Of a stretch of 64,000 nt of DNA, positions 44,943 through 64,000 are shown one piece after another. The position numbers were made by a program, and so were the translations under genes. The notes under the pieces are model-generated. The model was given only the letters and a program-made list of their open reading frames with translations. It had not been told where the DNA came from and did not search any database. The DNA is taken from contig NZ_VOSK01000001.1 of assembly GCF_009296175.1 (NCBI RefSeq), forward strand, positions 124,001 through 188,000. The letters run 5' to 3'. How positions within the stretch are numbered: position 1 is the first letter of the stretch; each line of letters begins with the position of its first letter. Origin of the DNA: Microvirga tunisiensis. GTDB lineage: Bacteria; Pseudomonadota; Alphaproteobacteria; Rhizobiales; Beijerinckiaceae.

Positions 44943-46106
44943 TCAAGCTTGCTTGGCGCCTTGGAACTCGTTGTAGAGATCTTCTAGTCGTGATTTGAGA
45001 AAGTCCCCAAATTCTGGTGATACCTTCCGATCAATGACAAGAGAGAACCTGTCATCCGTAACGGAAATCTTCGCGAGACGGACGCCGTCGGGAGCAGTCC
45101 ATGTTTCAGGCTTTGAGCCAGGTTCCTTTGTAATGAGTGCCCTATACGCAGCTTCGAAAATGGCATCGCTGTCCCGGCCCGCCTTCTCGGCACGCTCAAT
45201 TGCACTGCGAACCTTGTCAATGGTGCGTGGCTTGATCAATCCGGAAAGGTCTTCCCATTTCCTTCTGCCGATCTTCGGTGCAGGGCCGATTGCATCGATG
45301 ATGTGACCGGGAACTGCGTTTGCGACTGAGAGCATCTTTGAAAGCATAGATTTGTCGACGCAAAGTGCCTGCATTATTACTTCCCGCCGGAAGCCGCGCT
45401 CTTCCAGGCGTGATGCAAAACGAGCCTTCTCAATGAAGCTCAGGTTTGTGCGGGCATTGTTCTCTTGGCCTTGAGCAACGACGAGTTGCTCATCGGTGAG
45501 TTCGCGAACGACGGCTCTGATCTTTATGCCGAGTTCCTTGATCGCTCGAAGTCGGCGGTGGCCGTAGGCTACCTGGTACCGTCCAGAGTGCTCAGGGTGT
45601 GGCCGCACTAGGATTGGAACTTGCTGCCCTTCAGACTTGATGGCTGCAACGAGCTCCTTATGGGCTTCGTCTGAGTAGGCCATTCGGTCAGGAACAAACG
45701 ACGCATCAATCTCGGAAGGATCGAGATCGACAATAGTGTGACCAGCTCGAAGCTGTTCCTCGAGTTCCTCAACGCGACCAACAGAGTCGACAGCTTCCTT
45801 CATTGCTCGAAGAGGCGAGGTCTTGAGAGATGGAAGCTTAGTTGGGAGCACGGCGATCTGCTCGCCAGCAACGTTGCTTGCAAGAGGACGGTCTGCGAGA
45901 GGACGAGAGGCTAGTGGCCGATCAGCAAGTGGCCGATCAGCAAGTGGCCGGTCGGAGAGAGGACGATCACCGGTAATTGCAGCAGCGGCCTCGGCCTGAA
46001 GTTCCCCTACAGGGTTGGGAGCGGGTGCTCCGGCAGTCCCAAGGTTCGCGCTGGGGGAGCCATCAGCATCATCGTTCCCAAAGGAAATAAGATTCTTGCG
46101 CGCCAT
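44943..46106 (-). CDS. repB: Plasmid-partition ParB/RepB protein with RPLAD repeats
   Basis: 387 residues; the ATG at 46106 shares a base with the repA stop. ParB N-domain (IDASFVPDRMAYSDEAHKELVAAIKSEGQQVPILVRPHPEHSGRYQVAYGHRRLRAIKELG; GHRR CTP-binding motif) and a central HTH (RREVIMQALCVDKSMLSKMLSVANAVP). RepB_plasmid C-terminal domain follows. It binds the parS sites at 47592-48603 and acts with RepA in segregation. Near residues 50-80 six tandem pentapeptides (RPLSD, RPLAD...) form an unusual insertion. Confidence 0.9.
   Translation of the reverse strand: MARKNLISFGNDDADGSPSANLGTAGAPAPNPVGELQAEAAAAITGDRPLSDRPLADRPLADRPLASRPLADRPLASNVAGEQIAVLPTKLPSLKTSPLRAMKEAVDSVGRVEELEEQLRAGHTIVDLDPSEIDASFVPDRMAYSDEAHKELVAAIKSEGQQVPILVRPHPEHSGRYQVAYGHRRLRAIKELGIKIRAVVRELTDEQLVVAQGQENNARTNLSFIEKARFASRLEERGFRREVIMQALCVDKSMLSKMLSVANAVPGHIIDAIGPAPKIGRRKWEDLSGLIKPRTIDKVRSAIERAEKAGRDSDAIFEAAYRALITKEPGSKPETWTAPDGVRLAKISVTDDRFSLVIDRKVSPEFGDFLKSRLEDLYNEFQGAKQA
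45876..45965 (-). repeat. Six 15-bp tandem repeats in repB encoding RPL(A/S)(D/S)
   Basis: Ninety bases encode RPLSD-RPLAD-RPLAD-RPLAS-RPLAD-RPLAS. DNA copies differ mainly at third codon positions, two adjacent copies being identical, so some are recent. The repeat is in the flexible region before the ParB domain. Confidence 0.9.
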
Positions 46107-47314
46107 TAGTGCCTCCCCCACGCTTTACGGATTTGATCTTCGATTTCGCCGTTAACGAGGTCCAAGGCCTCCAAAGCTCTGTCGTAAGTACCCTTGTTGA
46201 ATTTGGTCCGATCGACTTCGTACAAGGTTTGCTTTGTGATCCCGGAATCCGCAACCGCGGTGCTCTTCAGCATGCTGTTCTGCAGCACGCGATGTCCGAA
46301 CAGAGACCGCATGAACCCAACCATCTGGTTCTGAGGTCCATCGCTTGGCTCGTATCGAGTAACAAGGTATCGCAGCCAGTCATAGTCGTTGCGGTGCCTT
46401 CCAAGAGTGGTCGTGACTTCGCCAACCATCCTGAGGAATTGAGCCATGGACAGCACATCAAGCATTTGCGGATGAACTGTCACAAGAAGCGATGTTGCAG
46501 CACATAGAGCCGCCATGGTCAGGTAACCGAGATTCGGTGGGCAATCCATGACGACAACGTCGTAGTGCTGGTCCACCGACTCCAGGGCTTCCAGGACCTG
46601 CATGAAGAAGATCTTGGAATTCCTTCCGGCAGGCGCGGTTGTCTCAAATTCCATGAGTTCGAGATTGCCGGGGATGAAATGAAGGCCCGGGAGGTAGGTC
46701 GACCGAATGATGTTCTCAATCTGGGTGCGATGTTCGTCGAACCGGATTGCCCCATACAGCGTTTCGTTGTCCCGCACGTCGAGTTCCGGCTGGTTCCCGA
46801 AGAGTGTCGAAAGGCTCGCTTGCGGGTCCAGGTCGATAGCGAGCACGCGATAACCGCGAAGAGCAAGATACTGAGCTAAGTGGGCCGTCGTCGTCGTCTT
46901 CGCACTTCCGCCCTTGAAATTGATTACCGAAATGACTTGGAGCTTCTCGCCCTCAACTCGATGAGGGATATAACGGCGGTTGGACTTTGTCCCTTCGAGG
47001 AACTCTCGGACTGCGTTCACTTCCTCAATCGAGAAAGTCCGCCGGCCATTTGGCTGCATCTCTGGCAGGGGAGCTTTGCCCTCTGCCGCAAGTTGCCGGA
47101 GATAGCCCTCATGAATGCCTAAGAATTTCGAGGCTTCGCTTGAGGTAAAGCGGCGGATGGCCTTCTTCGCAACTGGAGGAAAGATCCTCTGGGTGTGTTC
47201 CTGTAGCTTTTTTGCGAGGATGTCGGCGTCAAGGACGATCTGCTGCTTATTGGAAGCGGTGTCGAGAGCCGGTGGGACTACAGGAATGGATGAAGGCTGC
47301 TGAACTGCTGTCAT
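46106..47314 (-). CDS. repA: Plasmid-partition ParA/RepA ATPase
   Basis: 402 residues. N-terminal winged/MerR-like helix (RRFTSSEASKFLGIHEGYLRQLAAEGKAPLPEMQPNGRRTFSIEEVNAVREFLEGT), as in RepA of repABC plasmids, then a deviant Walker A (INFKGGSAKTTTTAHLAQYLALRG), LAIDLDPQASLSTLFG and VVMDCPPNLGYLTMAAL (Walker B). Type Ib-like partition ATPase that also autoregulates its operon. Precedes repB in an overlapping pair; no repC follows. Confidence 0.92.
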   Translation of the reverse strand: MTAVQQPSSIPVVPPALDTASNKQQIVLDADILAKKLQEHTQRIFPPVAKKAIRRFTSSEASKFLGIHEGYLRQLAAEGKAPLPEMQPNGRRTFSIEEVNAVREFLEGTKSNRRYIPHRVEGEKLQVISVINFKGGSAKTTTTAHLAQYLALRGYRVLAIDLDPQASLSTLFGNQPELDVRDNETLYGAIRFDEHRTQIENIIRSTYLPGLHFIPGNLELMEFETTAPAGRNSKIFFMQVLEALESVDQHYDVVVMDCPPNLGYLTMAALCAATSLLVTVHPQMLDVLSMAQFLRMVGEVTTTLGRHRNDYDWLRYLVTRYEPSDGPQNQMVGFMRSLFGHRVLQNSMLKSTAVADSGITKQTLYEVDRTKFNKGTYDRALEALDLVNGEIEDQIRKAWGRH

Positions 47315-48525: not shown

Positions 48526-48587
48526 CCTCGAAATACAAATCTCGAGCGCGCTTGTTGCAGCGGGACGAACCTGATGTCCGGCGCCTA

Positions 48588-49628: not shown

Positions 49629-50027
49629 TTGGGACGGGGCCCGACGCGGCGGCGACAATCCTGGGACGAGAGGCAGGGAGACCTATTCGGAGTCTCCCCA
49701 CCCAAGCCTGCTGCCGCTAAGCGTCCAATCCCTGCCATCCCGAGGGAAACTCCGGTAAACCAACCTATAGAGGCCGTGTCGCTTACTTCTTTGGCAAAGC
49801 GGGCCAGCCGCCACGAGATCGACGATATGGTTAACGAGTTGGGCGACGATGAGCTTGCCCACCTGATCGTGAGAGGGGTTAGGACTCTCAAGCGACGATT
49901 GGCACGGGTAGGGCAGGGGGCCGGTCGCTCCAGTCGAATTGGCGGGCGGCGGAGCGCATTGGATCGGGCGCTCCAGGACCTCGCGGCCGAACTGTCAGGC
50001 TTCGACGAGTCAGATGCAGATTGGTGA
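49629..50027 (+). CDS. Unknown basic protein with TTG start
   Basis: 132 residues from TTG 49629, supported by GGGGAGG at 49615-49621. Contains RRRQSWDERQGDLFG near the start and EIDDMVNELGDDELAHLIVRGVRTLKRRL as a charged helix. I recognise no domain. It is convergent with the recombinase gene that follows, 16 bases apart. Confidence 0.5.
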   Translation: MGRGPTRRRQSWDERQGDLFGVSPPKPAAAKRPIPAIPRETPVNQPIEAVSLTSLAKRASRHEIDDMVNELGDDELAHLIVRGVRTLKRRLARVGQGAGRSSRIGGRRSALDRALQDLAAELSGFDESDADW

Positions 50028-50043
50028 GAGCTTGAATATAAGC

Positions 50044-51045: not shown

Positions 51046-51425
51046 CTCAGGAGATCGTCTAGAGCCGTCTCATCGACGTGGCGACGTAGGGCGGTTGCGA
51101 CATCCCGTATGGCAGTTTCTGGCGAGAAGTTGTGGTCACGGCGGAGGCTTAGAACCTCAAGGGTCAAATCTGCTCGATCCCTGAATTCCCTTTGCGGCTC
51201 CTCTGAGTCCCAGTCGGCTACGAAAAGCGCTCTCAGAACCGGCGGCAGGATGTTAGCGAAGCGGATCGCCTCGATAACGGAGAGCCGGCGCCGGAAGGTG
51301 AGCAGGACCGCTTGCACCATCGTGTAGGTCTGGTTGCGCGTGGACAGGCCGGAGATGTCCCGAGCATCGCGCAAGAAGGCTTCGAAGTCCTCTGACACGT
51401 GCTGGAACTCCATGGGTATCGTCAT
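51003..51425 (-). CDS. DUF2267-family protein
   Basis: 140 residues from ATG 51425 (MTIPMEFQHVSEDFEAFLRDARDISGLSTRNQTYTMVQAVLLTFRRRLSVIEAIRFANILPPVLRALFVADWD). All-helical DUF2267 fold, often encoded near stress genes. Same strand as the recombinase and overlapping its possible start, so they may be co-transcribed. Function unknown. Confidence 0.75.
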   Translation of the reverse strand: MTIPMEFQHVSEDFEAFLRDARDISGLSTRNQTYTMVQAVLLTFRRRLSVIEAIRFANILPPVLRALFVADWDSEEPQREFRDRADLTLEVLSLRRDHNFSPETAIRDVATALRRHVDETALDDLLRCMPPCAAQFWAVV

Positions 51426-51760
51426 AGCCGTTTTGCCTCCAAATCTAGCCCTTTGTACAATGTCTGCAGATAGCCGCAACTGGCCGTTTGGGAACGTTGC
51501 TGAGGGCATTTGGATGGCGCGACGAGGAGGGCAGGGGGATTACTAAGACGGGCGAAAGTGCCTTAAAAATTAAGGTTTTGGCAGTTCGCTCAGGGAATGC
51601 GAGGCTTTCGTTGGCCTTCTTGATCAAGATGCCGATAAGGGGTAATTATCGATACCAAAGGCCAAGCTGCAAGGGGCTCATACCGCAGCGAAGCTAATCC
51701 CCGATTTGGTTCCCTTGCTGGCGCAAAGCGTGGCTGGTACAAGAGCTTAGAACAAGGGGG

Positions 51761-52909
51761 GTGGCCGTGCATCGGGATTGGGACGAGGAGCACATCGAGC
51801 GCGCCGCGCTCGCCCTGCCGGACCTGCCGTGGGAGAGCATCGCCGGTCGGCTCGAACAGATCACGATTGCCGTTCTGCGCTTCGACGCGCGCCTGGAAGC
51901 CTCCGGCCTCGCCGCCGGCTGGCAGTCCCGCTGCGACATGACCGAAGCCGTGCGCGCCCTGATCCTTGATGGTCACTTGGTCGATGTCGGCGATCTGGTG
52001 CTGCACGACGCCGGCATGGATGTGCGCCACCCCACCCATGAACTCACCCGGGCCGCCGCGGCGCTGAAGTCCCGGCGCACCGCGATGGCGCGCAAGGCCC
52101 CGTGGCCGCTGTCGATCGACGGCTTATCCGCCCTGAGGGGCATCGGAGGTGTCGCGGACGAGGCGTCGCGGCCGTCCAAGGTAAAGCGGCCCAATCCGGA
52201 CGATGACGAGGCCTACCCGCTGCATGCCAACGATGCCGACCCGTGGAAGGCCCACTTTGCCGAGATCGATGCCCTGCTCGATCGCACCAGCAAGGTGCTC
52301 GCCGGCGAAACCCCGCTGCGCAAGAGCCGCTCGCACCTGGTCTACGATCCGGATCAGGATGAAGCCGAAAACGAAGATCTGTGGCTGGATCTGATCAAGC
52401 GCACAAGCCATTGGCCGGCAGTCGCGGCGGCGGCCGTGGCGTGGAATGCCTGGCTCGATCTCAACCTCTACACCCGCCATCCCTGGCTCGGCCTGACGAT
52501 GGCTGCGTCCGTTCTCCGGGCTCGTGGCCTGACGCACCATCTGCTGCCGCTCGCGGCGGGGTTCAAGCAGTCGAAGTTCCGGCCGCAGGGCCGGGAAGGG
52601 GCCCGGGAAAAGTTGGAGGGCTTCTGCCAAGTGCTCGAGGAGGCGCTGGCCATCGCCAACAAGGATCTGGATCGCCTGATCCTGGCCCGTGAGCTGATGA
52701 ACCGGGTGACCAAGGAGTGCCGCAGCAACTCGAAGCTGCCGGGACTGGTGGAGCTGTTCCTGTCGCGGCCGCTGGTGACGGGGCCGCTCGCGGCCAAACT
52801 GCTGAAGGTGACCCCAAAGGCTGTCGACCTCATGCTAGCGCAGCTGGGAGGCGCGCTTCCGCGGGAGCTCACCGGCCGCACCCGCTATCGCGCCTGGGGC
52901 ATCGTGTGA
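51761..52909 (+). CDS. DUF1612 plasmid protein (RHE_PE00001 family)
   Basis: 382 residues from GTG 51761 with AAGGGGGG ahead. Pattern ITIAVLRFDARLEASGLAAGWQSRCDMTEAVRALILDGHLVDVGDLVLHDAGMDVR, RHPWLGLTMAASVLRARGLTHHLLPLAAGF, and a C-terminal HTH (PLVTGPLAAKLLKVTPKAVDLMLAQLGGALPRELTGRTRYRAWGI). The family is frequent on repABC plasmids of Rhizobiales; a role in replication control or DNA binding is suspected, not shown. Confidence 0.82.
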   Translation: MAVHRDWDEEHIERAALALPDLPWESIAGRLEQITIAVLRFDARLEASGLAAGWQSRCDMTEAVRALILDGHLVDVGDLVLHDAGMDVRHPTHELTRAAAALKSRRTAMARKAPWPLSIDGLSALRGIGGVADEASRPSKVKRPNPDDDEAYPLHANDADPWKAHFAEIDALLDRTSKVLAGETPLRKSRSHLVYDPDQDEAENEDLWLDLIKRTSHWPAVAAAAVAWNAWLDLNLYTRHPWLGLTMAASVLRARGLTHHLLPLAAGFKQSKFRPQGREGAREKLEGFCQVLEEALAIANKDLDRLILARELMNRVTKECRSNSKLPGLVELFLSRPLVTGPLAAKLLKVTPKAVDLMLAQLGGALPRELTGRTRYRAWGIV

Positions 52910-52964
52910 CAATTTCCTTAATCTTGACGCGGTGTTGTCATTGTCGGTTCATCTTCGTCAATCT

Positions 52965-53183
52965 ATGACTGTGTCCCGTTCAAAGGGACGGTTGCGCATG
53001 TTGATGTGGGGTACGGTCGTTGCTTTTCTGCTCTCCCTCGCGGCGGTAGGCCCGCTGCGGGAGATCTCGCCATCCTGGCTCCAGAGCGGGGCTGAGCTGA
53101 TGGCGGTCATCAGCGTCTTTGCCCTCGTGTGTTTTCTCGAATCCAGCAGCAGTAACCCCGACCGCGGCAACTCGGCCTCCTGA
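52965..53183 (+). CDS. Small membrane protein
   Basis: 72 residues from ATG 52965. Two hydrophobic spans (LMWGTVVAFLLSLAAVG; ELMAVISVFALVCFL) around a short loop. No known family; coding status moderate. Confidence 0.4.
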   Translation: MTVSRSKGRLRMLMWGTVVAFLLSLAAVGPLREISPSWLQSGAELMAVISVFALVCFLESSSSNPDRGNSAS

Positions 53184-53239
53184 AAAGTTTGGTAAGGACC
53201 CGCGCGCTACGGTGCTGACCCGTCACCGGAGACAGCACT

Positions 53240-53758
53240 GTGCGAAAACTTCTGCTCGCGGTAATCGGGATTGTCCTGGCGGCCCCCGCCGCTGTTGCCG
53301 ACGGCATGAGCCTTGCAGGCTCCCTCTGGCAATGCACCCGCTCTACCGATCAGTCTCAGTTCGTGATCACGTTCTATCCAGGAGGAGGGGTCGGAGGCGG
53401 CGAGCTGGAGAAGGACGAGGTAAGCCCCTACATCTTCGATGCTTCCCAGACGAATCCGGGCGAGTGGCCTGGGAGATGGGAACAGACAGGCCAACATTTC
53501 ACATGGGCATTTCCGGATCAGAGCATTCAGATCGAAGGTAGCCTCTCAGGATCTGGTCAGCCGGCTGCGCGGCTCACCGGCACCGGAACTGACGCTGGCG
53601 GTAAGTTTGCAGTGACGTGCAGAAGCTTGGTGAAACTGCCCCCGATCGGGGACGGGCTCGTTGTCCCAAGGGACAGCCGCTTTATCGACCTGGATGGAGA
53701 TGAGGGAGAACTGAAGGTGCCCGCTGGGGTCTCCCTTCAAGAGCCAGAACAGCGCTAA
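53240..53758 (+). CDS. Secreted unknown protein
   Basis: 172 residues from GTG 53240. Signal peptide (MRKLLLAVIGIVLAAPAAVADG), then a beta-rich domain (SLWQCTRSTDQSQFVITFYPGGGVGGGELE) that resembles small periplasmic lipocalin-like folds in pattern only. Two cysteines could form a disulfide. No family recognised. Confidence 0.6.
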   Translation: MRKLLLAVIGIVLAAPAAVADGMSLAGSLWQCTRSTDQSQFVITFYPGGGVGGGELEKDEVSPYIFDASQTNPGEWPGRWEQTGQHFTWAFPDQSIQIEGSLSGSGQPAARLTGTGTDAGGKFAVTCRSLVKLPPIGDGLVVPRDSRFIDLDGDEGELKVPAGVSLQEPEQR

Positions 53759-54372
53759 ACTTCACTTCGCGGCGGGGGATTGAGGAGATCGTCCTTAAGC
53801 TGACTGTCTCGCGCCATACCGTGGGCTGTGCGCAGGTAGGCAGGGGATAATGCGACAGGACCGGATCAATCGTCCCTGTGCTCCCATCCGCCGCTGGAGA
53901 AGGGACAGGGCCCATTCCAGCGAGGGAAGGGCCCTGAGTGACACGAAGTCACCATCTGTTTTGATGATCCGGCATCGCCGGTGGAATAGTCCAGATCGGT
54001 GAGCTGGAGTACGTCTCAGCACTCAATCGAAGGTGGGGAGGCGCGCTTCAGCCCTGGGGGTTGCACTATCTTAGCCTCCTTATGTCAGAGCCGAGGCGGG
54101 TGCGGGGCTCACGGACAATCTGGATCTGGCTGCTGTTTCAGAACCCACGAAAGCAGTCGGCAAATCCTGTGTGTGATGGCGTACTTACGCAATCCAGGTG
54201 AGTAGCCGTCGAAGGATCAAGCTGGGGAAAGCACAATGGTTTCAGCGTAACTGGAAAGAAAGAAGCGACTGGCTTTCGCATGTTTGCGCTGCAACCGACG
54301 ACGTCAGCGCGAGTTGCCTCTTCACATATGTTAATCAGGGGCAATGCAGGGCATAGCCATGAGGATGATGTC
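53759..54372. other. Stretch without a clear gene
   Basis: About 610 bases before the NepR-like gene. No supported gene, RNA or repeat was found. Confidence 0.4.
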
Positions 54373-54558
54373 ATGCAGCAGAATAACACTCGGGATTGGT
54401 CGCGTGAGATCCCCAGCAGCTTGAACTTTTCTCAGGAGCAGGTGGTCTTCGTCATCGGGCATTCCTTGAGGAGCCTGTACGACAATGTCCTTGCGGACGA
54501 CGTGCCCGATCACCTGAAAGCTCTTGTGCACAAGCTTGAGGAGAAATATCCCCTGTAG
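54373..54558 (+). CDS. NepR-like anti-sigma factor
   Basis: 61 residues from ATG 54373 (GAGGATG just upstream). VVFVIGHSLRSLYDNVLADDVPDHLKALVHKLEEKY matches the NepR core (IG..LR..YD..V...VPD....LL..L), two helices that bind the general-stress sigma factor EcfG and are titrated by PhyR. No ecfG or phyR gene lies nearby, so it is an orphan copy. It may still act on a chromosomal EcfG; inferred. Confidence 0.7.
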   Translation: MQQNNTRDWSREIPSSLNFSQEQVVFVIGHSLRSLYDNVLADDVPDHLKALVHKLEEKYPL

Positions 54559-54589
54559 ACCACGCCCTCTGCGAGGGCACCTTCGGACT

Positions 54590-54907
54590 ATGGGATTCTG
54601 GATGACCAGCAAGAACGTCACCCGTGCTGACCTGGCGCAAGCCGTAGCCTATGCCGTCGGGCTGCCCAAGCATGAGGCGATCGCTCTAGCCGAGCAGGTA
54701 CTCACCGAGATCTGCGATACACTCGAGCGAGGAGAGAACGTGAAGCTCTCCGGCTTCGGGAATTTCGTGGTCCGAGAGAAAGGCGAGCGGACAGGCCGCA
54801 ATCCCAAGACGGGTGAAGAGGTTCCGATTGAGCCCCGCCGGGTCGTCACCTTCACTCCATCGCCCAATCTGAAAGACCATGTGAACGGGCAGCCCGCCGG
54901 CACCTGA
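54590..54907 (+). CDS. ihfA: Integration host factor alpha-like protein
   Basis: About 105 residues from ATG 54590, or 101 from 54602. VTRADLAQAVAYAVGLPKHEAIALAEQVLTEICDTLERGENVKLSGFGNFVVREKGERTGRNPKTGEEVPIEPRRVVTFTPSPNLK is the HU/IHF fold with the DNA-bending proline arm RNPKTGEEVPI. It lies 31 bases after the NepR-like gene and may be a plasmid-borne architectural protein that supports replication or recombination. Confidence 0.85.
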   Translation: MGFWMTSKNVTRADLAQAVAYAVGLPKHEAIALAEQVLTEICDTLERGENVKLSGFGNFVVREKGERTGRNPKTGEEVPIEPRRVVTFTPSPNLKDHVNGQPAGT

Positions 54908-55108
54908 TCTACAAGGTGGTCAACTCGCCTCAGACACAGGTGAGCCATCCCAGAGGCCATTCGCGTGCAGCAGGAGTTTTGACGTGTTTGTTGTGCCTCC
55001 GCGGCCCCATCAAGCAGCCATCATCCTGGTGCCCAGTTGCTCCGCGGCGGTGACTGAAACTAAGTGATGCCGCCGCGCTGATCCGCGCAGGAAGAGGAGA
55101 AGCCCATC

Positions 55109-55351
55109 ATGTCGAGATTGGTAGTCGCGTTTGCACTGGCATTGGCCGCAACCACCGCCACTGCTCAAGAGGCTCCGTCCAGTCCATCGCAGGCTCCGGC
55201 TGCTACGAGCACGAATGGAACACAGCCGTTCCTATTCGATGGACGGATGAAAGGTGATGGTGCCCAGCGGAGAGAGCAGGTGGACAATCGCCACCCGAAC
55301 GCTGGTACCATCATCGTGCAGCCGAAGGAAAGCCAGCCTGAGCGCAAATAA
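55109..55351 (+). CDS. Small exported proline/alanine-rich protein
   Basis: 80 residues with a signal peptide (MSRLVVAFALALAATTATAQ, cut after AQ/EA) and a low-complexity mature part. GAAGAGGAGAAG precedes the ATG. Similar small periplasmic proteins are common in Methylobacterium-type genomes; function unknown. Confidence 0.6.
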   Translation: MSRLVVAFALALAATTATAQEAPSSPSQAPAATSTNGTQPFLFDGRMKGDGAQRREQVDNRHPNAGTIIVQPKESQPERK

Positions 55352-55434
55352 TGCGTCCGGGCATCATCAAGCCGGGGTGATCTCTTCGGCGCGAAATGAT
55401 GCCCGTGCGCTCTATAAGCTCCCGTTTCGCGAAA

Positions 55435-55914
55435 TTAGCTGCGCGCGAGCGTCAGCACGGTTAGCGCATTCCTCCCGACGTTCTCTTCGAGGCGTTGCCA
55501 TCCCAAGCGCTCATAGAAGGCGCGCTTTTCTGGTAAGGCGCAGAGATAAACAAGATCGGCCCCACTCTCGAATGCACCCTGCGCTGCCTTCCGGACTAGG
55601 GCGGCCCCAATACCTCGGCGTCGGTGCTCAGGATCGACCCAAACTGCGGCCACCCAGGGCGAGTATTCGGGTCGCTCATCAAGATCCGAGGGGATCACAG
55701 ACGCCGTTCCCAAGAACAGGCCATCCTCGTGAGCCACCACAGCACAGGGCACCGCTGCACCGTCCAGGCTCTCCGCAACGCGGCCTTCAATATAGTCGAG
55801 CGGATATCCCTTCCCCTGCCACCAAGCTCGCCAAACACGATCAGCGACTGCTTCGGTAAACTCAGGGCGCTCCCGAAGGTCGGAGACAACAAAGGAGCCT
55901 TCTGGTGAACTCAT
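55435..55914 (-). CDS. GNAT-family N-acetyltransferase
   Basis: 159 residues from ATG 55914. The acetyl-CoA motif WVAAVWVDPEHRRRGIGAALVRKAAQGAFESGADLVYLCALPEKRAFYERLGWQRLEE has the (R/Q)xxGx(G/A) signature RRRGIGA and the Tyr of the FYERLGW segment. Substrate unknown. Convergent with the small exported protein; 103 bases to the next GNAT gene on the opposite strand. Confidence 0.82.
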   Translation of the reverse strand: MSSPEGSFVVSDLRERPEFTEAVADRVWRAWWQGKGYPLDYIEGRVAESLDGAAVPCAVVAHEDGLFLGTASVIPSDLDERPEYSPWVAAVWVDPEHRRRGIGAALVRKAAQGAFESGADLVYLCALPEKRAFYERLGWQRLEENVGRNALTVLTLARS

Positions 55915-56017
55915 CCTACAATGCCCGTTTCGAGAAAAAGCCTTGGCCCGTTCCGTCGCTTGCATTGCGACGACAGGGTTGGGCGGATATCCCTATCTTA
56001 GGTAGGGAAGGAACCTG

Positions 56018-56557
56018 ATGATCCGTGTAGCCACAGCCATTGATGCAAGCAATCTCGCAGCTCTATCCATCCAGGTTTGGCTCCATACCTACGCCAAGAC
56101 TGGGCTGCGCAGCGCGCTTTCCGACTACGTACTGGCCGAATATACCCCGGAGAAGATTGCGGAGCGCCTGAGAGACGAGAACCAGGTCTTCATGGTCTAC
56201 GAGCAAGATGCTCATCTCGTCGGATATCTGAGGCTGCTCTTGGACGCGCCATGCCCGACTGATCCGAGCTCCCATGTCGAAATTGCGACGCTTTACGTCC
56301 AAGAGCACTTCATTGGACGAGGGATCGGAAGCAAGTTGCTAGAATACACCTTCGATTTTTGCAGCAAGCACGGGATCAACAGCGTTTGGCTCTCTGTAAA
56401 TCACGAGAATGCCCGCGCCATAAGCTTCTATGACAAGCATCATTTTCAGCGAAATGGCTCGATCATCTTCCACTTGGAGAACGAAAAACACGAAAATTTC
56501 GTGCTCCACAAGCCAGTCCCCATGCACTTGGCTGAGGCCGCTGATCCAGTCGGGTGA
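56018..56557 (+). CDS. GNAT-family N-acetyltransferase
   Basis: 179 residues. IATLYVQEHFIGRGIGSKLLEYTFDFCSKHGINSVWLSVNHENARAISFYDKHHFQRNGSIIF carries the acetyl-CoA signature (GRGIGS) and the family C-terminal strand. Lower GC content and different codon choice from the neighbours suggest separate acquisition. Divergent from the GNAT gene at 55435. Confidence 0.82.
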   Translation: MIRVATAIDASNLAALSIQVWLHTYAKTGLRSALSDYVLAEYTPEKIAERLRDENQVFMVYEQDAHLVGYLRLLLDAPCPTDPSSHVEIATLYVQEHFIGRGIGSKLLEYTFDFCSKHGINSVWLSVNHENARAISFYDKHHFQRNGSIIFHLENEKHENFVLHKPVPMHLAEAADPVG

Positions 56558-56590
56558 GGTCGATTGGAGCTTGGCGCGGCCCGGAACGGA

Positions 56591-56980
56591 CTATACGGGA
56601 GGTAATTCGAGGCCGTTCGGCAGTGAAACCCAGATGACAGTTTGCGCATCTGGCGAATGACGTGACAGATGGCCCTTGCCGTGGGTGTCCTCCACCAACA
56701 CGAAGCTGCCCGCCGGAACGTGGCGCACCTCTCCGTCGCTCGTCTCGTATTCAACTGAACCATCGAGCCTGATCGTCAGCACCGGCTCTGGGACCGTATG
56801 CCAAGCAACCTCGCGCATACCCGCTGGAATATGGGTAATGCGGACGCGGGACGCCGGATAGTTTCCGGTAACGTCAAACGGCACGGCATCAGGGTGCACT
56901 TGCCTCTTCGTCGTCGGCAACTCGACTTCGTCAAAATGCGACTCGCCATCCGGGGTGGCATAGATGCGCAGGCACTTCAT
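56591..56980 (-). CDS. Cupin-like protein
   Basis: 129 residues from ATG 56980 (MKCLRIYATPDGESHFDEVELP). A single cupin barrel is suggested by VRITHIPAGMREVAWHTVPEPVLTIRLDGSVEYETSDGEVRHVPAGSFVLVEDTHGKGHLSRHS, with the His/Glu positions of motif 1 only partly kept. Metal use is uncertain. Confidence 0.65.
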   Translation of the reverse strand: MKCLRIYATPDGESHFDEVELPTTKRQVHPDAVPFDVTGNYPASRVRITHIPAGMREVAWHTVPEPVLTIRLDGSVEYETSDGEVRHVPAGSFVLVEDTHGKGHLSRHSPDAQTVIWVSLPNGLELPPV

Positions 56981-57046
56981 TGCGGCTGGCTCCTTCTGGT
57001 TCGCCGTACTGACACGATATCGCTCCATAGATGCGTTATCGGAAAT

Positions 57047-57463
57047 TCAGGCCCATCGTTTGGCCATCCAGACGCGGTCGTGACCGGGGGGACGATCCTT
57101 CAAGCGGCCAATCTCGGCATAGCCTTGCTTCTGGTAGAACCCAATCGCCTGAAACGTTGACGTCGTCAGTTGCGCGCCAATTGCGCCGTGCTTCTGAGCA
57201 GCATCCTCAGCCAACCTGAGCAGGCGGGAGCCGTAGCCCTGCCCACGCAAGGACTCATCCACCCAGAAGTGGTCCACTTGCAACCAGCAGAGGACAACGG
57301 TTCCCCGAATGCCCCCGCGTACCTGGTGATCCTCATCGCGTATGAGCAGGGTCAGGGGAACACGCGCTAAGTCGCCAGTTTGCTCAATCATGTGAGCGCG
57401 CAGGCCTTCCGTCACGTCGTCTGCCCCGGGAGGGTTGGTTTCCTCAAGAACCTCGATCTGCAT
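57047..57463 (-). CDS. GNAT-family N-acetyltransferase
   Basis: 138 residues from ATG 57463. VDHFWVDESLRGQGYGSRLLRLAEDAAQKHGAIGAQLTTSTFQAIGFYQKQGYAEIGRLKDRPPGHDRVWMAKRW shows the acetyl-CoA site (RGQGYG) and an FYxKxGY strand typical of the tRNA/peptide acetyltransferase-like subgroup. Same strand as the cupin gene, 66 bases apart. Confidence 0.82.
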   Translation of the reverse strand: MQIEVLEETNPPGADDVTEGLRAHMIEQTGDLARVPLTLLIRDEDHQVRGGIRGTVVLCWLQVDHFWVDESLRGQGYGSRLLRLAEDAAQKHGAIGAQLTTSTFQAIGFYQKQGYAEIGRLKDRPPGHDRVWMAKRWA

Positions 57464-57777
57464 GTTGTCGCCTTGGTTTTTAGCAGCAATATCACAGGCT
57501 CTATGAGTAGCAACTCCGTTCCACGCACGGCCTAGAACGGCCTTCTGCGAAATCCGATGCGGGCATTGGGGAAGCACTTTGCCGAATAGTAGCGATCCGA
57601 TGCGATCGTCTCCGCTGAGAGTGCCGAAGCTGATCGCGTTAAGGCTCTCTTCACGGTGCTCATGTTCTCAAAATGTTCTATGATGTTGTGAGCCACCTGA
57701 ATCGGAAGATTCTACTGTCCGTGATGGGGCTCTCGTGTTTCGAATATTCCCTTCAACCCTCTTCTGATCTCTGAACG
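57464..57777. other. Promoter region of the helicase gene
   Basis: 314 bases between a GNAT gene and the helicase, with no gene seen. It contains the GTTC-N7-GTTC LexA-box candidate at 57664-57678. Confidence 0.5.
57664..57678 (+). promoter_or_regulatory. Probable alphaproteobacterial LexA (SOS) box
   Basis: GTTC-TCAAAAT-GTTC exactly fits the direct-repeat LexA operator GTTC-N7-GTTC known from alphaproteobacteria. It lies 99 bases before the start codon of the helicase gene. Confidence 0.65.
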
Positions 57778-60684
57778 ATGCGGCCTCTAACCAAACTCGC
57801 CGATGCTTCTGATGAGGCATCTGTCCTCCATCTTTGCCGTGTTGTCGGCGACAAGCAGGCCGAGCCTTACCAGGCCAGGATCATGTTCTCGCTGCGCGAG
57901 GCAATCCAGCGCGGTCGCTCGGGTGCGGTTCTAGCGCCCACGGGAAGTGGTAAGAGTCTGAAGGCAGCCGCTGCGGCCGAGGATGCGTTCAGTCTCGGCA
58001 AGCCCATTTTGATCCTGCACCCGGATGTCAGCCTGCTTCGGCAGAACTACGCACAGCTGCAGGCCATCCCGTCCCTGCGGGAGGCACGCTTGGCGTTCTT
58101 CGTTGCCAAGACAGAGGTCATCGGGGACGGGTCGATGCTCCGCAACACTCTCGATGCCGACGTGATCATGGCGACGAACATGTCGCTGGTGAACAAGCTG
58201 GATGACGAGGACTTCCTGCGCGGCCTCGACGAGTTCGGCCAGCGAGGGGGCGTTGCGCTTATCGACGAAGGCCACAAGGCGGCCGCCGAACAGCTCTCGA
58301 AGATTCTCCAGCGGATTGCCCGTGCCGGCGGCTCAGGCATCGTGCTCACGGCCACTCCGTTCAGAACGGACGGTCAGGACCCGCTGGATCCCTTTGGTGC
58401 CAGCATCGAGCACGATCTGATCGATGTCGCCACCTATGATGAGGTCCTGGCGACGGGCCGGACGGTGCGGACCCGGTTCGACATTGCGACCGGAGAGTTC
58501 GAGCGCCACCTCGGCGCCGACGCCGTCCGGCTGATCGAAACGGCCTTTCTAGCCCTGTTGGCCGAGAACAAGTCAGTGGATCAGGCCTCGCAGCAGGCGT
58601 TCTCCCGCTTCTTCAAGCCGGATGCGAGCGAGGGCGACAGCGCGATTGCCGAACTAATCGTTGCGGCTCTCGTAGGGATCTGGGCCAAGCGGGCGGGCAA
58701 TGCCGTTCTGGCGATGGTCCATTGCGACAGCGTGGAGTTCGCCAAAGCGCTCTCAGGAGCTCTGGCGGTTCAGCGTCTGCCTGAGGAGCACCCGCGCGCC
58801 GGTGAGCGTCCGCGCGTCGCCTTTGTGGTTGCTGGTGAGATCCGCGTCTGGCGCGACGGACGGGAGACTGGTCTTAAACTCGGCGAGGAACCCGGCCGGA
58901 AGATCAAACGTGACGATCTTCTGAATGAGGCCCGGGCGGGCGAGTTCGATATCCTCGTCAACGTGAATGCCCTCGGCATCGGGACCGATGTTCCCCAGAC
59001 GGATCTCAATATCCTGGCGTGTCAGGAACGATCGATCGGTCCCGTCAAACAGATCAGCGGCCGCGGCGAGCGCTCGCACAAGGCCACTCGGAAGACGCAC
59101 CAGGTCTTCGTCGACGTCGGCAACTCGATCCTGCGGATCTTCAATGACATCGATGCAATGCGCCGCAATGATCCTGAGCGGTGCCGCCGTCAGGTGCGTG
59201 GTCTGGCTGCGCCAATCCGGGAGCAGTTTGAGGCCTGGTTCGACAAGGATCCGTCCCTTCGAGACCAGATCGAGGAGCGCCAGCGCCAGATCCGGCTGCG
59301 TCTCGGTGAATCCGATCGGGAGCAGTACGAGGATCCTCTTGACCCCTCAATGTCCTGGGGCGAGGAAGATACCCTGCCGCTGCCGAAGCCGTTCGCGTCT
59401 GGCATGATGGCCGCCGGGATGCGCCGGTATGACTCCGAGAGCAAGAAGTTCTCCAGCCGCTTGGCCCTGTTCTGCGATCTCTATCAGTCGGGGATCTATA
59501 GCGCAGAGGCCGTACAAGATCTCCCGCGCTGGTTAGTGGCAACCCACGATGAGAAGACAGGGGCGCAGCAGGCGTTCCTGTGCTCGACCCTCGACGTTGC
59601 TCGCAAGTACGCGGCGTTTGTCGGCATCCGCTACGATGGAGAGTATGAGCAGAGTTCTCCGAGCGATAAGCAGCGGCGCTTCCTTGCTAGCCTGCAAAAG
59701 GAGAAGCCTCAGGCCCAGCCCTGGCTCGTACCCTTCGAAGAGGCGAGGAGTGCGACCCAGATCGCGTGCGGGATCGATCTGCTGAAAGATCGGGCCGCGC
59801 TGCTGGTGACGCTGCTCGCCATGGGGGCGACCCGTCTGATCGAGAGAGCGACAGGGGCCCACAGCCTGCAGCCCAAGCTGCGGTCGGTCATTCTGGATCG
59901 GCCCAACCAGATCACACCCCAGCGCCGTGATCTCCTGGCCGCCTATTGCCGGCTGCGCCAGCGCCTTGCGGAGATCGCGCCCACGGGGTTCGACCGCAAG
60001 GCGGCTCCGTTCTCGATCACGACGTACGATCCGAGCGTCCTGCCGGAAATCCGGAGCGTGGTTGCCAGCACAAATGTTGGCTTCTTCGTCATTGAGGATC
60101 CGGACAAGGAAGAGGCCCTGAAGCCCCGCCTGGCCGAAGGGCTGATGAATGCCAGCATCGTTGCCGTCGGGCCGAAAGGTCCGACCGAAGCGTGGATCCG
60201 CCAGAAGGCCGGGTTTACCCGCCACGACGATGCGGCCCGCGTGCGCGAGCGCAGCTTCAGACTGGCGCTGGAGGACTTGTGCGATGCCGGCAAGATCTCC
60301 CGGCAGAATTCCATCGCGATCACCCTGACACGTCTCGAGTACATCGAGATTGCGAGTGCAAAGCCGGGGCGCGAGCTCACCCGGGCTATGGCTGATGTCG
60401 TCAAGGATCTGATGGTCGTTCTGAGTGACGACGGGCAGATCCCTGCCGATGGTGCTCAGGTCGAAGCCATCCGGTCGGCCATCGCCAACAATCTTCCGGA
60501 GCTCGCCATCGAGCTTCCGGTCGGGCGGCTCTGCGCGCGCTATGCCCAGCAGACGGTTCCGAACCAGAAGAAGATCCTGAAGACGTTGGAGCGGGCTGCC
60601 GTTTTCAAGAAGAACCGCGATGCCTTCCTTCGGGCCCGGCAGCAGGTCTCAGACAACGGCCTCAGAGCAGGGGCGCAACGCTAG
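57778..60684 (+). CDS. Large SF2 helicase with unknown C-terminal region
   Basis: 968 residues. Motif I APTGSGKS (53-60), Ia ILHPDVSLLRQNY, II IDEGH (162-166), III TATPFR (191-196), V VNVNALGIGTDVPQTD (about 395-410), VI QISGRGERS (425-433). Residues 450-968 are mostly helical with no catalytic motif I recognise; a SPSDKQRRFLASLQKEKP segment resembles the small TekQ-type helical repeat found in phage helicases. No nuclease partner adjoins. Preceded by a LexA box, it is likely a damage-induced DNA repair or defence helicase. Confidence 0.8.
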   Translation: MRPLTKLADASDEASVLHLCRVVGDKQAEPYQARIMFSLREAIQRGRSGAVLAPTGSGKSLKAAAAAEDAFSLGKPILILHPDVSLLRQNYAQLQAIPSLREARLAFFVAKTEVIGDGSMLRNTLDADVIMATNMSLVNKLDDEDFLRGLDEFGQRGGVALIDEGHKAAAEQLSKILQRIARAGGSGIVLTATPFRTDGQDPLDPFGASIEHDLIDVATYDEVLATGRTVRTRFDIATGEFERHLGADAVRLIETAFLALLAENKSVDQASQQAFSRFFKPDASEGDSAIAELIVAALVGIWAKRAGNAVLAMVHCDSVEFAKALSGALAVQRLPEEHPRAGERPRVAFVVAGEIRVWRDGRETGLKLGEEPGRKIKRDDLLNEARAGEFDILVNVNALGIGTDVPQTDLNILACQERSIGPVKQISGRGERSHKATRKTHQVFVDVGNSILRIFNDIDAMRRNDPERCRRQVRGLAAPIREQFEAWFDKDPSLRDQIEERQRQIRLRLGESDREQYEDPLDPSMSWGEEDTLPLPKPFASGMMAAGMRRYDSESKKFSSRLALFCDLYQSGIYSAEAVQDLPRWLVATHDEKTGAQQAFLCSTLDVARKYAAFVGIRYDGEYEQSSPSDKQRRFLASLQKEKPQAQPWLVPFEEARSATQIACGIDLLKDRAALLVTLLAMGATRLIERATGAHSLQPKLRSVILDRPNQITPQRRDLLAAYCRLRQRLAEIAPTGFDRKAAPFSITTYDPSVLPEIRSVVASTNVGFFVIEDPDKEEALKPRLAEGLMNASIVAVGPKGPTEAWIRQKAGFTRHDDAARVRERSFRLALEDLCDAGKISRQNSIAITLTRLEYIEIASAKPGRELTRAMADVVKDLMVVLSDDGQIPADGAQVEAIRSAIANNLPELAIELPVGRLCARYAQQTVPNQKKILKTLERAAVFKKNRDAFLRARQQVSDNGLRAGAQR

Positions 60685-60722
60685 TGGTTAAGATCTGACG
60701 CTTGGTGCCCTGACTGCGTTTG

Positions 60723-61073
60723 TCAGCGATGTGCCAGGATGTTGACCAGGCGACCGAATGGATCACGGACATAGAAGCGGGTTACGCCCCAGGGCTCAGT
60801 CGCGGGGCCATATTCAATCGTGAACCCTGCGGCCTGCATCTTTTTATAAATGTCAGACAGATCGTCTACCTCAATGGAGAGGTCGGGAACAGGCGTTCCG
60901 GACCCGCCCTCGGTCATCACGCTGATCTGTGGCGTCATGCTGCCATCAGCCGCAAAGGTCATGATCCACCCGAGGTCCATAGCGATATTCATCCCGAGCA
61001 CGTCGCCATAGAAGGTCTTTGCGGCATCGGTCCGGTCGACAGCCAGGTTTGCAACAATGCGCCTCACGGCCAT
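60723..61073 (-). CDS. VOC-family protein
   Basis: 116 residues from ATG 61073 (MAVRRIVANLAVDRTDAAKTFYGDVLGMNIAMDLGW). Two beta-alpha-beta-beta-beta modules; C-terminal EPWGVTRFYVRDPFGRLVNILAH carries the usual metal Glu-like position. Glyoxalase/dioxygenase superfamily; substrate unknown. Convergent with the helicase, 39 bases apart. Confidence 0.8.
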   Translation of the reverse strand: MAVRRIVANLAVDRTDAAKTFYGDVLGMNIAMDLGWIMTFAADGSMTPQISVMTEGGSGTPVPDLSIEVDDLSDIYKKMQAAGFTIEYGPATEPWGVTRFYVRDPFGRLVNILAHR

Positions 61074-61141
61074 GGATTGTCTCCTTGCATAGCCCTCATG
61101 GGCGGCGACCAAGCATCAGATTTCGTCCCCTCGGTCAGTTG

Positions 61142-61699
61142 TCAAAGCCCTGGCTTCCATTTGATCGAGCAGCCCATCGAGGGTTTCTGCCCGGCTGGGG
61201 CGATGCCCGTTGCTGCCACCGCTCGCAGGGCCTCGAGGAGTTCCCGCGGGGCGGTCGGGGAGGGCTGGTTCGTGCGGCCCTCGTCCAGGCGCCCGTGGTA
61301 CCTGAGCCTTCCCTCTCGGTCGTATCCGAAGAAGTCCGGCGTACAGACCGCTCCATAGGTAAGGGCGACCGATTGATCCTCGTCATGCAGATAGGGGAAA
61401 GGCAGTCCGTGGCTCGTGGCGAAAGCCTTCATGTTGTCGAATGAGTCTTCCGGATAGGCGGTGGCATCGTTCGAGCAGATCGCCGCGAACCCAACTCCCT
61501 CGTTCTGTAAAGCCAGCGCGTCCTGAACCGCGCGATTGATGACAGCTTTCACATAGGGGCAATGATTGCAGATGAACACGATGACGGTTCCCCGTTCGCC
61601 TGCAACATCATCGAAGGAATAGATCCGCCCATCAGTCCCGCGGAGTCGGAAATCACCGGCCGGGGATCCCAGGGCGACACTGTCGGATGCTGTTGCCAT
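61142..61699 (-). CDS. Thioredoxin-fold protein (AhpC/TSA-like)
   Basis: 185 residues from ATG 61699. VFICNHCPYVKAVINRAVQDALALQNEGVGFAAICSNDATAYPEDSFDNMKAFATSHGLPFPYLHDEDQSVALTYGAVCTPDFFGYDREGRLRYHGRLDEG is the PRX-like2 type, with NHCPYV in the peroxidatic position. It may reduce peroxides or act as thiol-disulfide carrier. Same strand as the VOC gene, 68 bases upstream. Confidence 0.82.
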   Translation of the reverse strand: MATASDSVALGSPAGDFRLRGTDGRIYSFDDVAGERGTVIVFICNHCPYVKAVINRAVQDALALQNEGVGFAAICSNDATAYPEDSFDNMKAFATSHGLPFPYLHDEDQSVALTYGAVCTPDFFGYDREGRLRYHGRLDEGRTNQPSPTAPRELLEALRAVAATGIAPAGQKPSMGCSIKWKPGL

Positions 61700-61942
61700 A
61701 TGAACCTCCTCTGTCGTGGTCCGGGTCCTGTGGTGCTGCGAAGAGTAAGGAACCCGGTTGGAACAAATCAACAACGAAGATTCTTGTGCGGCTTGAAAAT
61801 AGAGATTCCGTGATCCTATTCTGTCCCTGGTCCTCCGATATGGACGTCAGAACTGGGCGGCGCGTCCGCTCTTGGTGAAGTCTTCACAGGAACCCAAACC
61901 CAGCGTGCGCGCGTTGGATCCGGCTTTCGAGGAGTATACCGT

Positions 61943-62425
61943 TTGACCACTCTCAAGGAGTTTGAGACCGCATTGCGGGAGCAGGGCATGAACATGGCCC
62001 TCGCCATCCTGGAGAAGCTCAAGGAGCGCGATCGCGCCAATCGGACGGTCAGAGTCGGGCGGCGGATCGCCGGCAAGAAGATGACGCCCGAGTTGGCGAG
62101 GCGGATCATCGAGCTCAACCAAACCACTGAGATGACCCAGCAGGAAATTGCGTTTCAGCTGGGCGTCAACCAGGGCCGCGTGAACGAAGTGCTCAAGCAC
62201 GGAAAATGGCTGCAGGACAATCCAAAGTCCGAGGAAGCCGTGTCGCGCGACCGGGCCAAGGCACGCATGGAAAAGGCGCGGGCCGAGAGCGTTCCTGTGA
62301 GCATGCGCAAGAGTGTGGCTCCACCAAATGAGATAGCGCATCGCCCAAAGCCAAGACCACGCAATGTGGCGCAGCTCTCGATTGAGGACTTCCTGAGTTC
62401 GCCGCCCAAGTCCGAACAGCGATAG
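61943..62425 (+). CDS. HTH DNA-binding protein
   Basis: 160 residues from TTG 61943. MTPELARRIIELNQTTEMTQQEIAFQLGVNQGRVNEVLKHGKWLQDNP has the Xre-like HTH with recognition helix NQGRVNEVLKHG, as in phage- and plasmid-borne regulators. A basic tail follows (KPRPRNVAQLSIEDFLSS). Target unknown. Confidence 0.65.
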   Translation: MTTLKEFETALREQGMNMALAILEKLKERDRANRTVRVGRRIAGKKMTPELARRIIELNQTTEMTQQEIAFQLGVNQGRVNEVLKHGKWLQDNPKSEEAVSRDRAKARMEKARAESVPVSMRKSVAPPNEIAHRPKPRPRNVAQLSIEDFLSSPPKSEQR

Positions 62426-62471
62426 GCCCAGCGGCGCCGGTGCCGGGATTGCCGGTGCCCAGACATGCAGA

Positions 62472-62491
62472 AGCCCGCCGGAGGGCGGGCT
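62472..62491. terminator. Bidirectional terminator hairpin
   Basis: AGCCCGCC-GGAG-GGCGGGCT, an eight-base stem with a four-base loop, sits between the convergent HTH and DUF1127 genes. Confidence 0.75.
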
Positions 62492-62518
62492 CGACATCTC
62501 TGACGAAGCTGAAGCGGG

Positions 62519-62677
62519 TTAGGCCGCAGCAGCAGAATTGCGTGCGATGTAGTCAATGTCGTTCCGCACGATGCCAAGGTCGTTGAGCTCACGATCGCTG
62601 AGATGCGACAGCTCACGAACCGTCTCGCGGTAACGCATATACGCGCGGATTTGGGAGAGAATGTAGGTTACGAACAT
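62519..62677 (-). CDS. DUF1127 small peptide
   Basis: 52 residues: MFVTYILSQIRAYMRYRETV followed by RELSHLSDRELNDLGIVRND, the arginine-rich DUF1127 (YjiS-like) pattern. Starts after AAGG in its leader. Such peptides can bind RNA or affect phosphate and stress responses; function here unknown. Short, so easily missed. Confidence 0.85.
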   Translation of the reverse strand: MFVTYILSQIRAYMRYRETVRELSHLSDRELNDLGIVRNDIDYIARNSAAAA

Positions 62678-62840
62678 AATATGCCTTCAGGTGCTAACTG
62701 CCTCGACCACCGAGGTTTTTTCCATTGTCTGTGACAGGACTGATATGGGGGTGAGACACTTAAATGAACAGTCGGCCCTATGTAGAGGCGTTATGCACTA
62801 AGAGCATATCGAGCCTAGCCGTATGGGACGGAAATGGATC

Positions 62841-63536
62841 CTAAGCTGCCGAATTCGGCTGGCCAGAATCCATGTTTGCCTGAAGGAATTGAGATCCGAC
62901 TTTCCGGGCGCTGGCGCGGTTTGTGACGTTCAGGCCCTGCAGGATGGCGGCAACGTGAACTTTCACTGTGCCAAAGCCCATCTGAAGCTCTCGAGAGATC
63001 TCCTTGTTGGTCATACCTTTCACAAGGAGGTCGAGTACTTCGAGCTGACGACGGGTGAACTGGGGCTGACCCTGGGTAGGTCGGAATTTTGGCTGAGAGC
63101 TGTCGCCTACCTCCGATGATTTCAGCTCATCCATCCCAGGTGGAACGAAGATACTGCCGTCGAGGATGCTGGTGACTGCACCAGCGATGTCGCTGGAGCT
63201 CAACCCCTTCGGGATGTAGCCGTGGATTCCAGCCTGGAGCGCCATTTCGATATCAGTCGGGTGGCTTGAGCCAGACACGATGGCGATCTTGGTGTTGGGA
63301 AAGGCTTTGGTGAGCGCTCCGATCGTGGCGGCGTTCTTCACGCCTGGCATCTGAAGGTCGAAGAGAGCGAGTTGTACGCGCGGTGTCGCTTCCAGCTGTT
63401 CCACGGCTTCGTCGAATGAGCCGACTGTAATGGCATCGGCGAACCCGAGACGGTTGGTCAGAATGGCCGCAAGAGCTTCGCACATGACCTGATGGTCGTC
63501 GGCAACGATCGCAATTTTGTTCTTCTTCGCTGGCAT
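62841..63536 (-). CDS. NarL/FixJ-type response regulator
   Basis: 231 residues. Receiver with acidic pair D13 D14, phospho-acceptor Asp60 (FDLQMPGV), SGS near residue 92 and Lys in IPKG; then linker and LuxR HTH (FTRRQLEVLDLLVKGMTNKEISRELQMGFGTVKVHVAAILQGLNVTNRASA). No sensor kinase adjoins, so it is an orphan regulator, possibly answering a hybrid kinase elsewhere. Confidence 0.88.
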   Translation of the reverse strand: MPAKKNKIAIVADDHQVMCEALAAILTNRLGFADAITVGSFDEAVEQLEATPRVQLALFDLQMPGVKNAATIGALTKAFPNTKIAIVSGSSHPTDIEMALQAGIHGYIPKGLSSSDIAGAVTSILDGSIFVPPGMDELKSSEVGDSSQPKFRPTQGQPQFTRRQLEVLDLLVKGMTNKEISRELQMGFGTVKVHVAAILQGLNVTNRASARKVGSQFLQANMDSGQPNSAA

Positions 63537-63708
63537 ATGACGTACTTGCTTCCGGCCTCTGGGAGGTGATTGTTAGCCGGGTAAGCTGACCCCTGATTTG
63601 ATTTAGCCCAATTTCCTTAAAGCTATGCAAGAGCTAAGGTCCATTCCGCTAAATCGCCCTACCCATTAGGTGGTAGGTTTGACGCCCGAGGGTCTTCGTC
63701 TGGTGCGT

Positions 63709-64000
63709 CTAGCTGAGATCTAATCCTGAGAACCGCCCGCCCGTGGAGAGCAGCGGAGCGCGATATGCCTTCGCGCAAGCATAAATCATGGCGTCGCCCA
63801 TATTGAGTTTGCCCGTCTCGCTCGCCTTCTTCCCATGCTTCTCATAGGCCTGGGCGGCACGGCGGCCGATCTCGGGCGTAATCGAAATGACTTGGATCTT
63901 GCTTAGGGTGAGGAACTCGTTGACCAGTTCCTGGGTCTTGGAGATCGGGGCCCCGGTGGCATTGGATAGACCGACGGCGGCCTCGAGAAGGCTCATCGGG
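63709..64000 (-). CDS. PIN-domain VapC-like toxin (partial)
   Basis: At least 95 residues, cut by the window edge; an ATG at 63996 exists but the N-terminal catalytic Asp region probably lies outside. ISITPEIGRRAAQAYEKHGKKASETGKLNMGDAMIYACAKAYRAPLLSTGGRFSGLDL has the conserved GD and second Asp of VapC. Its VapB antitoxin would be beyond the right edge. Confidence 0.75.
   Translation of the reverse strand, partial: PMSLLEAAVGLSNATGAPISKTQELVNEFLTLSKIQVISITPEIGRRAAQAYEKHGKKASETGKLNMGDAMIYACAKAYRAPLLSTGGRFSGLDLS

Follow-up and report, generated by a model that had tools for sequence, protein, structure and literature searches.

We analysed a 64,000-nucleotide stretch of DNA from Microvirga tunisiensis (the window, below) and, in it, a gene for a superfamily 2 (SF2) helicase of 968 amino acids, which has an ATG start and an intact reading frame (57778..60684, + strand). 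We found that a LexA-type box in front of this gene is conserved in four loci of the window's branch of the helicase family, and that the protein joins an SF2 motor to a C-terminal region without a recognised domain. Sequence comparisons make it moderately probable that the helicase is a plasmid-borne, lineage-restricted (Microvirga and Camelimonas) DNA repair or tolerance motor, under LexA control in the window's branch.

The box, GTTCTCAAAATGTTC (57664..57678, + strand), matches exactly the direct repeat GTTC-N7-GTTC, given as the alphaproteobacterial LexA motif in passages of two earlier reports (PMC8565304, PMC3323433), and lies 99 bases 5′ of the ATG, as a preceding reading of this DNA from the letters alone (the sequence-only reading) had stated. 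Immediately 3′ of the box is a probable −10 hexamer, TATGAT (57679..57684, + strand), as judged from the consensus TATAAT; M. lupini has TATGTT here. Five of the seven bases of the box spacer are A or T. The assembly's lexA and its four full-length recA genes served as a positive control, and each of them has GTTC-N7-GTTC upstream (L059, L062-L064, and C55:5786-5800 for the recA at C55:5871); at two of these five sites, those of lexA and of the recA on C888, the motif is on the other strand from the gene. The window holds 5 exact matches to the motif against 1.8 expected, a count reached by 4 of 100 shuffles, and the chance of an exact match is ~0.6% per 200 bp.

We then compared the upstream regions of 23 distinct helicase loci (the locus listed as both L008 and L022 was counted once; L019/L025, which are one fragment, and the fragments L043, L047, L054-L056 and others are excluded from the count). 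Four loci carry the box, namely the window, M. lupini (L001), M. arabica (L002) and the recombinant copy of BT688 (L011), with the consensus GTTC[T/C]CAAAATGTTCTATG. The box starts at −114 in the window and at −111, −117 and −117 in the other three. When 200 bp upstream of the four genes were aligned, 14 of 15 box columns were invariant versus 65 of 193 elsewhere (Fisher 6e-6); leaving out BT688, a recombinant, gave 14 of 15 versus 70 of 193 (1.5e-5). The longest invariant upstream run, CAAAATGTTCTATG, overlaps the box, as does every 15-column window with at least 12 invariant columns, while the upstream identity of the window to the other branch rows is 55-67% (55% over the 200 bp of M. lupini). 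No other upstream block is as well conserved across these four loci, and the box is therefore probably more than a chance match.

The motor was analysed next. Motifs I (APTGSGKS, residues 53-60), II (DEGH, 163-166), III (TATP, 191-194), V (IGTD, 401-404) and VI (QISGRGER, 425-432) are spread over two RecA-like domains, as expected of an SF2 helicase. Motif I, TATP, the GTD of motif V and the Q..GRGER of motif VI are invariant in 17 aligned sequences (window included); motif II reads DEG in all 17, followed by H in 16 and by Q in Camelimonas. RecA-like domain 1 (residues 27-196, motifs I-III; 57856..58365, + strand) matched Pfam ResIII (2.5e-12) and DEAD (2.2e-9), and all ResIII, DEAD and SWI2_SNF2 matches fell within residues 27-224. 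RecA-like domain 2 (residues ~376-460, motifs V and VI; 58903..59157, + strand) matched Helicase_C, NCBIfam RadD and a RadD chain from the PDB, the Helicase_C match on residues 376-432 (9.6e-5, 23.1 bits) being slightly below the 23.5 cut-off. AlphaFold was run on 17 sequences, and the full-length helicase gave a predicted local distance difference test score (pLDDT) of 65. The N-terminal model resembles SF2 cores generally, with T4 UvsW and CasDinG among the top fold rows, tied with DEAD-box proteins. Sequence and fold neighbours of the helicase include the DNA repair or recombination motors RadD, T4 UvsW and PHROG 16. Judged by its sequence, the motor is an ordinary SF2 core, ResIII/RadD/UvsW-like; the "unknown type" proposed by the sequence-only reading thus applies to the C-terminal region and does not apply to the motor.

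This C-terminal region (residues 545-968; 59410..60681, + strand) has a predicted alpha/beta fold. Pfam returned 0 families at E<=1 for these residues of the window protein, and a PDB sequence search gave no match at E<=10; among relatives, weak Pfam matches were seen to PX (0.12, 2 of 17 members) and CBF_beta (0.25, 1 of 17). Modelled alone, the region reached a pLDDT of 81. Foldseek of this model against PDB and BFVD gave no match at E<=0.001, and the best VIA-align match was a dehydrogenase domain (Z 6.2, root-mean-square deviation (rmsd) 4.1, 112 residues), a level that the tool's own yardstick deems common. The region is therefore as unrecognised in Pfam, PDB and viral folds as it was by eye; a missing fold match for the modelled region is, however, no proof of a new fold. 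No endonuclease domain or other known effector domain was found by Pfam in the helicase protein. Ratios of nonsynonymous to synonymous substitution (dN/dS, NG86) for residues 545-968 were 0.035-0.078 in six within-clade pairs and 0.179 for the window versus M. massiliensis (L003), so the orphan tail is under constraint as well, and it probably gives substrate or partner specificity.

Purifying selection acts on both halves of the helicase. For the gene, dN/dS was 0.05-0.08 in the six within-clade pairs (dS 0.6-0.9), and for the window gene 0.065 against L001, 0.079 against L002 and 0.135 against L003. In a midpoint-rooted tree of 18 rows, from which BT688 was left out, the window groups with M. 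lupini and M. arabica (100/100), separate from a sister clade of 13 rows (100/100); neither clade includes M. massiliensis (L003) or Camelimonas (L016) (95/78 for the rest without them). The broken copies L015, L017 and L018 and the truncated L024 were left out of alignment and tree and placed by resemblance only; the intact L013 is absent from the alignment and present in the tree. The BT688 helicase (L011:8001-10727) is a recombinant, with an N-terminal part like the window's branch, a remainder like the sister clade, a gap at ~residues 519-575, and the promoter of the window's branch.

The distribution of the family is narrow. Relatives are found in 19 of 48 Microvirga genomes, broken copies counted. 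A collection of genome contigs yielded 20 loci, of which 18 are from Microvirga, one is from Camelimonas fluminis and one (L020, Puniceicoccaceae) is a weak match of 89 residues to the core only, which was left out; weak plasmid matches from Arcobacter, Spartinivicinus and Thioalkalivibrio, covering 81-104 residues of the core, were left out too. All 5 plasmid records with relatives are from Microvirga, and no relative was found in a phage collection or among IMG/VR viral contigs, the latter searched with both protein and alignment. With a whole-protein profile at 1e-20, 1 of 397 genomes of the order matched, and with a profile of residues 545-968 at 1e-3, 1 of 385 genomes of the class, in both cases the window's own. 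The latter profile matched 6 of 298 genomes of the family at 1e-3, from two genera (5 Microvirga and 1 Camelimonas, whose locus L073 is identical to L016). Among the literature matches listed on Microvirga repair and LexA or on plasmid-encoded SOS helicases, we met no account of this gene.

The sister clade has a different upstream element. A palindrome, TGATT-N4-AATCA, lies close upstream of the helicase in 17 of the 23 loci: the 13 sister-clade rows, the truncated L024 and the broken L015, L017 and L018. L003 and L016 have neither box nor palindrome upstream. In the sister clade the palindrome is ~60-75 bp 5′ of the helicase and mostly reads TGATTTGCGAATCA (for example L004:7926-7939 and G000:C230:3839-3852). 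Across the 8.8-Mb assembly of M. tunisiensis itself there are two sites with the pattern TGATTNNNNAATCA, and only the one 5′ of a second helicase copy (on C230) is TGATTTGCGAATCA. No LexA box was found upstream in the palindrome-bearing loci, and we therefore claim no SOS control for them; the palindrome may be the operator of a local regulator or a hairpin in the 5′ untranslated region. An intact SRAP open reading frame (ORF), divergent from the helicase, is present in 12 of the 17 palindrome loci (Pfam SRAP 6.4e-24 for the copy in the own assembly). Of the other five, L023 carries a SRAP gene broken by two stops, L017 and L021 retain fragments, and no SRAP was detected at L015 or L018. According to earlier work, SRAP is an SOS-linked family found in some operons with a RecD-like superfamily 1 (SF1) helicase (PMC3765255), and its member YedK acts at abasic sites (PMC9436759). 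The assembly has 8.8% contamination and four full-length recA genes above 570 bits (C212, C888, C215 and C55), which suggests that it is mixed, and the C230 copy may therefore belong to a different organism.

We also noted, downstream of the helicase at L005:14462 and L014:14029, a LexA-type site, GTTCCATTTTTGTTC, at the 5′ end of a shared 213-residue ORF on the minus strand; the identical site is found on the window's contig (G000:C135:276339).

A mechanism can be proposed from these data. LexA, bound to the box directly 5′ of the probable −10 hexamer, would hold expression of the helicase low, and cleavage of LexA triggered by RecA would release it. The SF2 motor would then remodel damaged or stalled DNA, most likely aiding the maintenance of large secondary replicons, with substrate or partner specificity set by the orphan C-terminal region. 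Sister-clade loci have a motor of this kind divergently placed beside a SRAP gene (HMCES/YedK-type, for abasic sites), and the palindrome between the two genes is a different, local element.

A bolder version, which we put forward as speculation, is a Microvirga plasmid DNA-damage module in two forms, one in which SRAP and the helicase are paired under a private operator, the other with a helicase that lacks a partner and has come under LexA. The C-terminal region of the helicase would then be a new fold recognising abasic sites, SRAP crosslinks or collapsed forks on secondary replicons. If the repair reading is right, plasmids of these soil and nodule bacteria would bring their own repair motor, and one kind of motor would be wired to two switches, LexA or a local palindrome beside a SRAP gene. 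To our knowledge, cooperation of a SRAP protein with a helicase at abasic sites is an open question; the loci would offer a direct test of it, plus an orphan domain to solve.

Several observations weigh against a LexA-controlled repair motor. Exact GTTC-N7-GTTC matches number 272 across the assembly versus 248 for a reversed control pattern, which is near background, so that an exact match by itself barely exceeds background. The box is not near the helicase in 19 of the 23 loci, including L003, the nearest tree row by path to the window after M. lupini and M. arabica. The flanks of the four box-bearing loci, L003 and L016 yielded no SRAP gene, and the link to repair through SRAP hence derives from the sister clade. 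RNA helicases and nucleosome remodellers score similarly in the fold matches, so DNA as the substrate is what we infer; an RNA role on the strength of RIG-I/MDA5, SNF2 and DEAD fold matches was rejected, these matches being to the common SF2 core. Finally, attempts to show unwinding by RadD, a repair protein that the helicase resembles, had failed according to passages of PMC9049331. The SOS control proposed by the sequence-only reading is accordingly narrowed: it is well supported in the window's branch by the conserved box and is not proposed for the other loci, so the box appears to be a branch-specific trait and LexA control is likely in that branch only (4 of the 23 loci). Absence of the box from every homologous locus, which that reading had named among the results that would count against it, was not observed.

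The best-surviving rival, to which we give a modest chance, is a plasmid maintenance or replication helicase serving mainly restart or segregation of RepABC-type replicons, in which SOS control would do no more than connect the gene to fork problems. A plasmid location of the helicase, as had been proposed, is supported: its contig (281,640 bp) carries RepB- and ParA/RepA-like partition genes (44943..47314, − strand) 10.5 kb from it, and relatives are on plasmids. At five loci repC lies 0.12 kb (Camelimonas L016), 1.7 kb (L002), 1.9 kb (L011), 6.4 kb (L024) and 9.9 kb (L022) from the helicase, and Microvirga genomes with a helicase match are larger (median 6.8 versus 4.8 Mb from rounded sizes, 19 versus 29 genomes, Mann-Whitney p 2e-6). 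However, tblastn with two RepC queries found no repC in the flanks of the other 18 loci, some of which are short, although two M. ossetica plasmids among them have 12 kb per side; no RepC match is on the helicase contig, and with 14 RP-C matches elsewhere in the assembly some proximity is to be expected on plasmids. Nor did we see an operon common with replication genes.

A stand-alone, damage-induced defence helicase against phages or plasmids, the other function that the sequence-only reading had entertained, appears unlikely. Such a role would suit a plasmid-borne, patchy and duplicated gene with partly broken copies, and the orphan tail could conceal an unrecognised effector. A methylase ORF family also lies 5.5-6.4 kb downstream of the helicase in 3 distinct sister-clade loci (the one scanned, in L014, has N6_N4_Mtase and Mrr_N domains), and PADLOC gave weak matches to typeIV_DinG and PbeA cores. 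These matches, however, are partial, at most 34 bits and confined to the common helicase core, the protein has no known nuclease or effector domain, no conserved defence partner was seen, and in the sister clade the gene met most often beside the helicase codes for SRAP, a DNA-damage protein. Least probable of all is a chance or relict box before an ordinary constitutive plasmid helicase, which would fit the near-background counts and the 19 boxless loci, but the box has the same placement in the window, M. lupini and M. arabica, beats every other upstream block, and has a spacer rich in A and T and an adjoining −10-like hexamer.

The helicase stands alone at the window locus, since no flanking ORF is common to all four box-bearing loci (ORFs of at least 60 residues; window 45001-64000). 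Its neighbours by Pfam are GNAT acetyltransferases, a glyoxalase, a redoxin, a helix-turn-helix (HTH) protein and a 145-residue ORF without a Pfam family; no modification gene, csf or CRISPR gene was found among the 9 neighbour ORFs scanned, and none of these is a directly adjacent nuclease, as had been noted. The small HTH protein, similar to sigma-70 region 4 (61943..62425, + strand), lies 1.26 kb 3′ of the helicase. Its relatives are 178-179 bp 3′ of the helicase in L001 and L002 and 3 kb 3′ in the sister-clade L009, and none was found near L011; a link to the helicase is possible. Outside the helicase, only this protein and overlapping antisense frames recur in both M. lupini and M. arabica (ORFs of at least 60 residues). 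A PIN-domain (VapC-like) gene lies at the window end (63709-63999), 3 kb downstream, and a PIN/VapC-like reading frame was seen by eye inside the broken M. rosea helicase gene (L018:9489-9905). An APH(6)-type aminoglycoside/hydroxyurea phosphotransferase gene is at 48714-49526, near the repAB-like genes.

We compared the helicase with known systems. It resembles restriction subunits through the ResIII match, but a type I/III restriction enzyme was rejected, as no modification gene is among the 9 neighbour ORFs; Pfam showed no endonuclease domain, although the tail, to which no domain is assigned, could hold one. Membership of a known defence system was rejected too, the best PADLOC match being partial (34 bits over 77 residues). 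CasDinG/Csf4 gave weak NCBIfam (residues 27-117) and PADLOC (30-106 and others) matches and a fold match to 8e2w (Z 14.2, rmsd 9.1, 282 residues); a FeS cluster would call for close cysteine pairs, and the helicase has none. A CRISPR-IV assignment was rejected as well, the neighbours scanned including no recognised csf or CRISPR gene.

PHROG 16 ("DNA helicase"), which we take to contain T4 UvsW, matched residues 27-457 (7.5e-32), and UvsW itself (1rif) matched the first RecA-like domain (Z 14.3, rmsd 3.1, 174 residues). Both matches are to the core only, and many other SF2 helicases lie within 1 Z. The pairing of a SRAP gene with a helicase in the sister clade recalls the SOS neighbourhoods of YedK/HMCES, except that the partner described in passages of PMC3765255 is SF1 and RecD-related, whereas the Microvirga one is SF2 and divergently transcribed.

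RadD (YejH), an SF2 repair protein of E. coli, matched in the second RecA-like domain (residues 375-456 to NCBIfam RadD, whole-protein E 3.5e-9; residues 362-446 to the RadD PDB chain, 4.2e-7). The score of 35.5 bits is far from the equivalog cut-off of 720, and RadD, as described in passages of PMC9049331, has two zinc ribbons after its helicase domains, whereas no CxxC or close cysteine pair, and so no zinc ribbon, is present in our helicase; on both counts we rejected membership of the RadD family. The helicase is also longer (968 versus 586 residues in the PDB chain), and no relation was found for its C-terminus. The helicase may nevertheless work like RadD, and we read it as a probable repair enzyme, not as a system of a new kind.

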